From NCBI RefSeq assembly GCF_039655875.1, contig NZ_JBBYXK010000003.1, positions 558,001 to 622,000 of the forward strand: DNA of 64,000 nucleotides. The letters are read 5' to 3'. The translations under genes and the position numbers were made by a program. Origin of the DNA: Emcibacter sp. SYSU 3D8. Its GTDB lineage: Bacteria > Pseudomonadota > Alphaproteobacteria > SMXS01. Each line of letters opens with the position of its first letter. Position 1 is the stretch's first letter. Under the pieces are notes generated by a model. The model ran no database searches and was not told the DNA's origin. It worked only from the letters and a program-made list of their open reading frames with translations. This document shows positions 61,610 to 63,954 of this stretch, piece after piece.

Positions 61610-62461
61610 CTATTCCACGGCCCAATTGTCGATCAGCCGCGTCGTCCCCAGCCGGGCCGCGCCGAAAACCCGGGCGGGCTTGCCGGGTGCGGTGACAAGC
61701 TCAAGGCTCGCCGGATCGCGGACCTCGATGTAGTCGACGCTGTCGAAACCTGCCTTCAGCACCTGCTCGCGGGCCGTGGCCGAGGCCGCGGACGGGTCGC
61801 CGCCCGCCTTCACAATATCGCGCACCGACTTGAGCGCCAGGGAAAGGGCCACGGCGATCCTGCGCTGTTCCGGGCTCAGATACCGGTTGCGCGACGACAG
61901 GGCGAGGCCGTCGGGCTCGCGCTCGATGGGAGCGCCCAGGATACGCACCGGAATGTTCAGGTCGGCGGTGAAACGGCGGATGATCTGCAGTTGCTGGTAG
62001 TCCTTCTCGCCGAAGATCGCCACGTCGGGCAGCGCGGAGGTCAGCAGCTTGACCACGATCAGCGCCATGCCGTCGAAATGGCCGGGACGGTGCGCGCCGC
62101 ACAGCACGTCGCCCAGCCGGTCGATATGCACCCTGGTGGCGAAGCCCTCGGGATACATCTCGCGCGCCGTCGGCACGAAGGCCGCGTCGATGCCGGCGGT
62201 TGCCAGCTTGGCCACATCCTCGGTCTCGGTGCGCGGATAACGCTCGTAATCCTCGCCGGGACCGAACTGGGCCGGATTGACGAAGATGCTGGCGATCACC
62301 CGGTCGGCCAAGCCTTTCGCCAGCCGCATCAGCGACAGGTGACCGTCATGAAGTGCGCCCATTGTCGGGACGAGGGCGACGGTTTCACCGGCTTTTCGCC
62401 ACGCGGCCACTTGTCCCCGCAGGTCGGCGACGCCACGTAAGATGACTGGTTCCTCTGGCAT
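61610..62461 (-). CDS. panC: Pantothenate synthetase
   Basis: A 283-residue ligase that joins pantoate and beta-alanine using ATP. The HIGH-like motif is MGALHDGHLSLMRLA, FVNPAQFGPGEDYERYPRT binds substrate, and the KMSKS-like loop is LALSSRNRYLSPEQRR. VIFGEKDYQQLQIIRRF (here VAIFGEKDYQQL) is also conserved. ATG 62461 is chosen, and the open frame beyond overlaps the divergent VWA gene. panB is not in the window. Confidence 0.95.
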   Translation of the reverse strand: MPEEPVILRGVADLRGQVAAWRKAGETVALVPTMGALHDGHLSLMRLAKGLADRVIASIFVNPAQFGPGEDYERYPRTETEDVAKLATAGIDAAFVPTAREMYPEGFATRVHIDRLGDVLCGAHRPGHFDGMALIVVKLLTSALPDVAIFGEKDYQQLQIIRRFTADLNIPVRILGAPIEREPDGLALSSRNRYLSPEQRRIAVALSLALKSVRDIVKAGGDPSAASATAREQVLKAGFDSVDYIEVRDPASLELVTAPGKPARVFGAARLGTTRLIDNWAVE

Positions 62462-62480: not shown

Positions 62481-63185
62481 ATGGCGGGCAAGACACCAAA
62501 AATTGTGGGCGGACCGGGCGAGGTCGACGCCTTCCTGCGCAAGCTGTCGCTGACGCCGGCGCCCGCCTCCGGCAAGCGGGGGCGTTTGATCTTCGCCCTC
62601 GATGCGACCATGAGCCGACAGCCCACCTGGGACCGGGCCTGCCACATCCAGGCTGACATGTTCCGCGAGGCCGATGCGGTCGGCGGGCTCGATATCAAGC
62701 TGGTGTTCTTCAGGGGATACCGCGAATGCAAGGCCAGCCCCTGGTATGGCCAGTCGGCGCCCCTGACCCGCGCCATGACGTCGATCCAGTGCCAGGGCGG
62801 CTATACGCAGATTGCCCGGGTGCTGAAGCGGGCGTCAAAGGAAGCGCGCGAAGCCAAGGTGAACGCGCTGGTCTATGTGGGCGACAGTTGCGAGGAAGAA
62901 ATCGACGCGGTCTGCGCGGCCGCAGGTGAACTGGCGCTGTCCGGCGTGCCCGCATTCATGTTCCAGGAAGGCGGCGATCCCTATGCCCAGTCGGTGTTCC
63001 GCGAGGTCGCGCGGTTGACCGGCGGCGCGTGGTGCCCGTTTGATGGCGACAGCGCCGGGCAGCTCCGCGAGTTGCTCAGCGCCGTGGCCATCTTCGCCGC
63101 CGGCGGGCGCAAGGCGCTTTCGGATTATGGCAATCGCCAGGGCGGCGAGGTGCTCCGGCTGGCGAAACTGGTGGCCGGCGGGTGA
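62481..63185 (+). CDS. VWA-domain protein of unknown function
   Basis: A 234-residue soluble protein. GKRGRLIFALDATMSRQPTW looks like the first strand and metal site of a von Willebrand A domain (D-x-T-x-S instead of the usual D-x-S-x-S). NALVYVGDSCEEEIDAVCAA and GVPAFMFQEGGDPYAQSVF fit later strands. It has no signal peptide or membrane part. Its start is only 19 bases from the divergent panC start, so control elements must lie within coding DNA. ATG 62460 in frame is an alternative start. It is followed about 90 bases later by a membrane DnaJ-domain gene, and the two are probably functionally linked. Confidence 0.65.
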   Translation: MAGKTPKIVGGPGEVDAFLRKLSLTPAPASGKRGRLIFALDATMSRQPTWDRACHIQADMFREADAVGGLDIKLVFFRGYRECKASPWYGQSAPLTRAMTSIQCQGGYTQIARVLKRASKEAREAKVNALVYVGDSCEEEIDAVCAAAGELALSGVPAFMFQEGGDPYAQSVFREVARLTGGAWCPFDGDSAGQLRELLSAVAIFAAGGRKALSDYGNRQGGEVLRLAKLVAGG

Positions 63186-63273
63186 ACGGCATCTGGCGGC
63201 GTGACGCTCGCTATGGCCTGCGCCGCCAAGCTGGGCCATGATGGCTGCCGAACCGACGATATAGGGAAACCTG

Positions 63274-63954
63274 GTGCCTTTGATTTTCTTTGGGGCGATT
63301 GTTCTCGTCCTGCTTGTGCTGCTGGTGAATTGGGCCGCCCGTGCCGACCGTGCCACGGTCCGCCGCGTGGCGCGGTATTTCGGGGCGTTCCTGGTTGGCG
63401 TCGCGGCGCTGTTCCTGATCGCTCGCGGCCTGACAGGCGTCGCCCTTGCATTGCTGGCGCTGGCCGGCACGCTGGCGTCGCGCAAGCGCCTCGCATTTCT
63501 GGGCGGCGGCAAGAAGGCGCCGCAGCAGCAATCCCAGGTTGAAACCAGCTTTCTGCGCGTCACCCTCGACCACGACACCGGCGACCTTGCGGGCGTCATC
63601 CTGGCCGGACGCTTCGCCGGCCAGCGGCTTGACGAGCTGGGCCGGGAAGATTTCAGCACGCTCTATGACGAGCTTCTGCGCGACGATCCGGAAGGCGCGC
63701 GGCTGCTCGATGCCTATCTGGCGCGCGCCTATCCGGGCGAATGGCGGCAGGAGCCGGGGCCCGGCCCCGCCGGCGACGGCCCGATGACGCGCGACGAGGC
63801 GTTCGAGATTCTGGGCATTGCGCCGGACGCCACGGCCACGGAAATCCGGGACGCGCACCACCGGCTGATGAAGAAGTTCCATCCGGACCAAGGCGGTTCG
63901 ACCTACTTCGCCACCCGCCTCAATGAAGCCAGGGACCTGCTGCTGAAAACCTGA
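63274..63954 (+). CDS. Membrane-anchored DnaJ-domain protein
   Basis: A 226-residue protein starting at GTG (MPLIFFGAIVLVLLVLLVNW), with two or three N-terminal membrane segments up to about residue 65. A middle region (ETSFLRVTLDHDTGDLAGVI, RFAGQRLDELGREDFSTLYD) is unlike DnaK co-chaperones of the classical types. The C-terminal J domain (MTRDEAFEILGIAPDATATE, then LMKKFHPDQGGSTYFATRLN) has the HPD motif needed to stimulate DnaK. The layout resembles Tim14/DjlA-like tail or membrane J proteins. Its role is unknown. Nothing further is seen to the window end. Confidence 0.8.
   Translation: MPLIFFGAIVLVLLVLLVNWAARADRATVRRVARYFGAFLVGVAALFLIARGLTGVALALLALAGTLASRKRLAFLGGGKKAPQQQSQVETSFLRVTLDHDTGDLAGVILAGRFAGQRLDELGREDFSTLYDELLRDDPEGARLLDAYLARAYPGEWRQEPGPGPAGDGPMTRDEAFEILGIAPDATATEIRDAHHRLMKKFHPDQGGSTYFATRLNEARDLLLKT

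Follow-up and report, generated by a model that had tools for sequence, protein, structure and literature searches.

The locus considered here raises the question of what a VWA protein and a membrane-anchored J protein do side by side. The analysed window (the whole stretch of DNA under study, 64,000 nucleotides) ends with their genes, which are arranged in tandem on the + strand, as an earlier note made from the sequence alone had reported. It is well established that J proteins carrying the HPD tripeptide recruit and stimulate DnaK. The VWA proteins known as partners of chaperones have mostly been found with AAA+ ATPases.

Results

Organization of the locus

The VWA protein gene (62481..63185, + strand) encodes 234 amino acids when read from the ATG at 62481, and an alternative ATG at 62442 would give a protein of 247 residues. 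The ATG at 62481 is the likelier start, since the longer reading frame would overlap the start of the divergent panC gene by about 20 bases, and since a methionine stands at the equivalent place in three relatives (loci L012, L015 and L017). The panC gene itself (61610..62461, - strand; start codon placed by eye), encoding pantoate-beta-alanine ligase (Pfam Pantoate_ligase, 325 bits), is no part of the VWA-J system. The second gene of the pair (63274..63954, + strand) encodes a Tim14-type membrane J protein of 226 amino acids, in the form referred to below as long; it starts with GTG, just 3' of the sequence AGGGAAA. Beyond the window, on the same contig, the J gene is followed on its 3' side by genes for a nucleotidyl transferase, a UDP-glucose dehydrogenase and a phosphoglucomutase. 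A scan for promoters and terminators around the pair gave nothing above the level of shuffled sequences.

The VWA protein and its metal site

The Pfam model VWA_2 matches the window's VWA protein with 18.9 bits, below the cut-off of 27, and it matches 23 of 29 members of the family weakly. The VWA fold is nevertheless present: the AlphaFold2 model (pLDDT 85.3, pTM 0.80) matches VWA folds with Z values of 16-19 over 165-187 residues among the 50 matches listed, where many VWA proteins are tied in the ranking and no nearest family stands out. No named family was found for the protein in NCBIfam. On the basis of its model and sequence, we take it to be soluble.

The earlier note had described the metal motif of this protein as altered. 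This description was abandoned, because the site is the DxTxS version of an intact MIDAS. Judged by its residues (247-residue numbering), the protein has an intact DxTxS...T...D MIDAS, composed of (i) the D-A-T-M-S motif (62601..62615, + strand), whose D54, T56 and S58 are present in all 165 homologues with letters at this place (6 of the 171 rows of the alignment are gapped here), (ii) T122 of GGxTQI (62805..62807, + strand), which is threonine in 164 of 165 homologues and serine in one, and (iii) D148 (62883..62885, + strand), found in 171 of 171. The residues following D148 are also conserved, namely E151 (171/171), E152 (170/171) and D155 (167/171). A reading of the pair as a defence system was rejected, with no PADLOC match for either protein and no phage match found for the VWA protein.

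Architecture of the J protein

The J protein matches Pfam DnaJ with 32 bits, above the cut-off of 27.8. Its model (pLDDT 86.5, pTM 0.45), together with the hydropathy of this protein and its family, predicts N-terminal hydrophobic helices at about residues 2-23, 26-50 and 54-69 (63277..63480, + strand). Next comes the middle domain, which is about 73 residues long (residues 86-158; 63529..63747, + strand) and consists in the model of three strands and two helices. The earlier note had called this domain unusual, and rightly so: it belongs to no Pfam family, and the search yielded only single-member matches (best E 0.012). Within it lies an L-D-H-D-T-G turn (residues 98-103; 63565..63582, + strand), which the conservation of H100 makes a candidate docking site for the VWA protein. 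The C-terminal part is a J domain (residues 171-225; 63784..63948, + strand) with an HPD tripeptide (63880..63888, + strand), which in J proteins is needed to stimulate Hsp70; its H, P and D are present in all 170 homologues with letters at these positions.

Two points go beyond the earlier note, i.e. that the middle domain follows the VWA protein in its distribution, and that the J domain is of the Tim14/Pam18 type. When solved chains were compared with a profile of 28 members of the J family, Tim14 (2guz_A) came first with 67.8 bits and the next chain reached 36.9. By fold the same chain led with Z 10.7 (65 residues, rmsd 4.0), followed by one at 8.8. Chain A of PDB entry 2guz is the mitochondrial Tim14/Pam18. 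Compared with the eight J loci of its own genome, the Tim14 fragment matched this J protein with 36.2 bits and the next one with 6.4. The fragment matches the long form of the protein and a short form (described below) about equally well (medians 36.1 and 35.0 bits). A predicted N-terminal membrane anchor and a C-terminal J domain, as in Tim14, are both found in the J protein; the J domain follows the anchor directly in the short form, whereas in the long form the 73-residue middle domain separates the two.

Co-occurrence and linkage of the two genes

Among 289 genomes of Alphaproteobacteria (the class sample), the VWA protein was found in 107 and the middle domain in 117; both were present in 106, the VWA protein only in one, the middle domain only in 11, and neither in 171 (Fisher p 6e-65, uncorrected for relatedness). 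A second sample of 299 genomes, drawn from the phylum and overlapping the first in part, contains 26 genomes with the VWA protein and 42 with the middle domain. The co-conservation across Alphaproteobacteria envisaged by the earlier note was thus confirmed, the middle domain of the long J protein being present in 106 of the 107 genomes with the VWA protein in the class sample and in 26 of 26 in the phylum sample. The one genome of the class sample with the VWA protein only (G092) is 10% contaminated and its VWA protein is distant.

This distant relative (L281:3671-4282; 35% identity) is paired with a short J protein only. It keeps DATAS and GDSFEE motifs, and a sister VWA family may therefore exist.

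The VWA gene is present in nine of the ten genomes of the order to which the window's genome belongs. Directly downstream of 102 of the 109 VWA genes of the class sample lies a long J gene on the same strand. Six genomes of this sample, three of them from one genus, keep both genes in non-adjacent positions, either far apart on one contig (G063 and G172) or on different contigs (G075, G171, G241 and G251). We also compared 81 loci, i.e. the best 80 (named) of at least 546 relatives together with the window's own. The middle domain was found downstream of the VWA gene, on the same strand and within 1.2 kb, in all 81, and a well-scoring J match in 79; the contigs of the remaining two break off 357 and 379 bp past the VWA match. 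No fused VWA-J protein was found among the ORFs searched.

Thirteen of the best 80 named loci are from Gammaproteobacteria, including Thiohalocapsa and Thiococcus; the idea that the pair reached them by a single transfer was unsupported. The VWA gene also occurs on 12 plasmid records (Azospirillum, Microvirga and Methylobacterium), and the long J gene adjoins it in all six of the plasmid loci examined. Azospirillum brasilense is among the species with the pair. Two annotated plasmid copies carry the names "VWA domain-containing protein" and "DnaJ domain-containing protein". Microvirga sp. VF16 has the pair on each of two plasmids of one strain (L325 and L326), and two VWA and long-J pairs per genome were seen in G061 (contigs C73 and C84) and G248 (C75 and C87).

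The short J form and contrasts within families

Genomes without the VWA protein frequently contain a short form of the J protein, in which the membrane segments and the J domain are kept and the middle domain is absent. By a count resting on our own cut-off, 48 of the 289 class genomes have this form, and the VWA protein is present in one of the 48 (G092). None of the 38 short-form sequences that were inspected contains the middle domain; their stop-to-stop length is 149-184 codons in 35 cases and 211, 230 and 265 codons in the others.

Both forms occur in each of six families (f9, f28, f72, f96, f108 and f109), and in all six the VWA protein goes with the long form. In f72, the only genus-level case among them, the contrast sits inside one genus (G253 versus G080 and G175). 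The genes on both flanks are conserved at the sites of four families (f72, f9, f96 and f108, in the last of which genome G116 has about 2 kb more upstream), only one flank is conserved at f28 and in the comparison of f109 with G117, and none in that of f109 with G272. Genomes with both the VWA gene and the middle domain thus have relatives that lack the two at the same syntenic position. Since the code for the membrane segments lies between the VWA gene and that for the middle domain, this joint absence is not the result of one clean deletion. Switches between long and short forms recur across families, appearing as repeated changes of form. A tree of J proteins, built with sequences from 148 out of 165 genomes that carry either form, gave 20 and 21 as minimum numbers of changes; being weakly supported overall, it left two to four independent pairs whose branches have good support, a number insufficient for a test.

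Long J proteins without a VWA partner

The middle domain was found without the VWA protein in 11 of the 117 class genomes that have it and in 16 of the 42 of the phylum sample. These include seven genomes of one genus and G005, whose middle domain is well kept; in one of the 11 class genomes (G156) the J gene lies at a contig end and the VWA gene may be missing from the assembly. Since the middle domain occurs in genomes lacking the VWA protein, the J protein is able to function, or at any rate to be maintained, in its absence. The dependence is one-way: the VWA protein needs the middle domain, and the middle domain can outlive the VWA protein.

Middle domains left in this way tend to decay. 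The eight lowest middle-domain scores among 109 J proteins (G156 and G069 left out) all come from genomes without the VWA protein, and seven of the eight are 2.4-3.9 SD below the value predicted from the J domain; the eighth (G170) is only 0.7 SD below. The J domain is also more diverged in the absence of the VWA protein (median 64.9 bits versus 94.8 in its presence), which explains part of this decay, and in the case of G170 the whole of it.

The residues affected were compared with G156 left out. H100 is present in 95% of 202 rows with the VWA protein (near relatives included) versus one of 10 rows without it in the first set. In these 10 rows, from six families, loss is most frequent at H100 and at the nearby L98, D101 and G103 of the turn, and residues G112, G116 and D138 of the middle domain are retained. 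The histidine has been lost in five of seven lineages without the VWA protein (G156 again left out). A rule that the LDHDxG turn is always lost along with the VWA protein was rejected, as the histidine is kept in one genome without that protein (G150) and in seven genomes of genus g224.

In these seven genomes (L348-L354) DUF1489 and the J gene have no VWA gene between them, unlike in G399 of the same genus, and the LDHDxG turn is kept; either the VWA gene was lost only recently or the turn serves another purpose as well. N-terminal tblastn matches at these loci were at first candidates for VWA remnants; this reading was given up, since they coincide with DUF1489 read in a different frame, leaving at most faint C-terminal traces (best E 8.6e-4, in L353). 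The g224 loci thus form a set of natural VWA deletions. In family f58, eight genomes without the VWA protein lack the histidine (in two of them the turn is unaligned), and G438 and G440, with the VWA protein, have it; the DUF1489-J site is found in three of the eight.

The genus of the window's own genome offers a further case. The order of genes is panC-TPR-J in G005 and TPR-VWA-J in its relative G004, and G005 has a proline in place of H100. The TPR protein encoded upstream of the VWA and J genes has N-terminal hydrophobic stretches (L184:6055-6837 in G005 and L015:589-1398 in G004); a search of the window's own genome for it, run without a positive control, gave no match.

Gene neighbourhood

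Over the 81 compared loci the pair has no third constant neighbour. The adjoining genes vary by lineage and include galU-ugd-pgm, dacF-phasin-clpS-clpA, DUF1489 and others, so a function deduced from gene neighbours was rejected, and the client is unlikely to be the product of one fixed neighbouring gene. In one group of loci (e.g. L096, L120 and L143) the pair lies near mipZ, DUF1489 and genes for a D-Ala-D-Ala carboxypeptidase, phasin, clpS and clpA.

Discussion

We propose, with a probability of roughly 55%, that the VWA protein and the J protein form a membrane-anchored complex recruiting Hsp70, in which the VWA protein docks on the middle domain and gives the recruiter of DnaK its target. 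We infer a physical complex with the following topology, docking site, choice of client and chaperone activity, DnaK being the chaperone. The N-terminal hydrophobic segments would anchor the J protein in the inner membrane, with the middle domain and the Tim14-type J domain facing the cytoplasm. The VWA protein would bind the middle domain, most likely near the LDHDxG turn, and would use its intact metal site to keep hold of a protein that is either a client or a partner. The J domain would then make DnaK lock onto what the VWA protein presents; recruitment and stimulation of DnaK are implied by a J domain with HPD. According to PMC7159879, VWA domains use their metal site to bind extended peptides and partner MoxR chaperones, i.e. 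they act, via the MIDAS, as peptide-binding co-chaperones of another class of chaperone. An analysis of residue coupling in 154 VWA-J pairs (171 before those more than 90% alike were merged; effective number 128) did not favour the middle domain and gave no support for any region, and a correlation of distances was no more informative.

The persistence of the J protein without its partner in several lineages, and the existence of DUF1489-J and TPR-J arrangements lacking the VWA gene, would also be expected if the VWA protein were an add-on control rather than an adaptor for clients, binding the middle domain to switch off or cluster the J protein while the membrane segments choose the client. 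We consider such a regulator possible, if rather doubtful, since hardly any homologue departs from the metal site of the VWA protein, and conservation of this degree suggests that the site has some ligand in addition to a fixed docking partner. That the two genes are independent and merely neighbours, their co-occurrence reflecting genome size and phylogeny, draws some strength from the observations that all 107 class genomes with the VWA protein are at least 2.1 Mb in size and that the J tree does not allow an independent test in the formal sense. Such independence seems improbable, however, given that six genomes keep both genes in non-adjacent positions, that in six families the two traits vary jointly between relatives, and that it is the middle domain, and not the J gene as such, which tracks the VWA protein.

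The earlier note had also thought of metal insertion, and the pair might in principle be a chaperone that inserts metal into, or assembles, a single defined enzyme complex. VWA proteins acting with MoxR-type ATPases do this, as in the case of RavA-ViaA and the fumarate reductase complex, according to PMC7159879. Metal insertion specifically found no backing in our data, as none of the genes around the pair is constant over the 81 loci. No gene of an enzyme complex is constant beside the pair, no AAA+ MoxR gene adjoins the VWA gene in the window's own locus, and a MoxR ATPase is found in none of the ten recurrent neighbour families that were annotated. We therefore give this explanation little credit and retain the recruitment of DnaK by a docked VWA protein as the preferred reading.

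In the open-licence literature, a search for VWA proteins acting with J proteins or DnaK found no matching system (the one VWA/J match is a different system), in agreement with the opinion of the earlier note that no described system corresponds to this pair. Nor was a VWA partner of a J protein, with a domain that tracks it, found there in print, also when bacterial relatives of Tim14 were searched for. The type of the J protein is known in outline. TimB, a Caulobacter protein reportedly described by Clements et al. in 2009, is said to be an alphaproteobacterial J protein of the inner membrane and a relative of Tim14. It probably belongs to the same family as the present J protein, and it is not known to have a VWA partner. 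To our knowledge, no job has been assigned to the bacterial Tim14-type J proteins. The fixed VWA partner, the domain that tracks it and the natural deletions offer a concrete way to find the one performed by this J protein. The 2009 paper is cited in PMC7064343.

The bacterial Tim14-type J proteins bear on the origin of the mitochondrial import motor. Tim14/Pam18 is the J protein of the motor that imports presequence proteins into mitochondria. The J protein of the window resembles it in having the J domain closest to it by sequence and fold, in the order of its parts (anchor first, J domain last), in the GGS that follows HPD and in an Asn-x-Ala of helix III common to both. Unlike Tim14, the long form has a middle domain between the anchor and the J domain, as well as a VWA partner. 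The short form (e.g. L196, L200 and L203) shares with the long one the N-terminal membrane segments and the Tim14-type J domain but differs from it in having no middle domain and, in 47 of 48 genomes, no VWA protein. It is tempting, though we think it unlikely and offer it as speculation, to imagine that Alphaproteobacteria have a two-part, VWA-steered membrane recruiter of Hsp70 with a J protein akin to mitochondrial Tim14, and that shedding the VWA protein and the docking domain would leave such a J protein with the anchor-plus-J layout of Tim14, freed for capture by other machines, e.g. the import motor.

Finally, the pair resembles the MoxR-vWA pairs (RavA-ViaA and the ternary conflict systems; PMC7159879) in that a VWA protein with an intact metal site is the partner of a chaperone. 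It differs from them in that the chaperone side is here a J protein and, presumably, DnaK instead of an AAA+ ATPase. If the proposed mechanism is true, it adds a case on the Hsp70 side to the VWA partners of chaperones.
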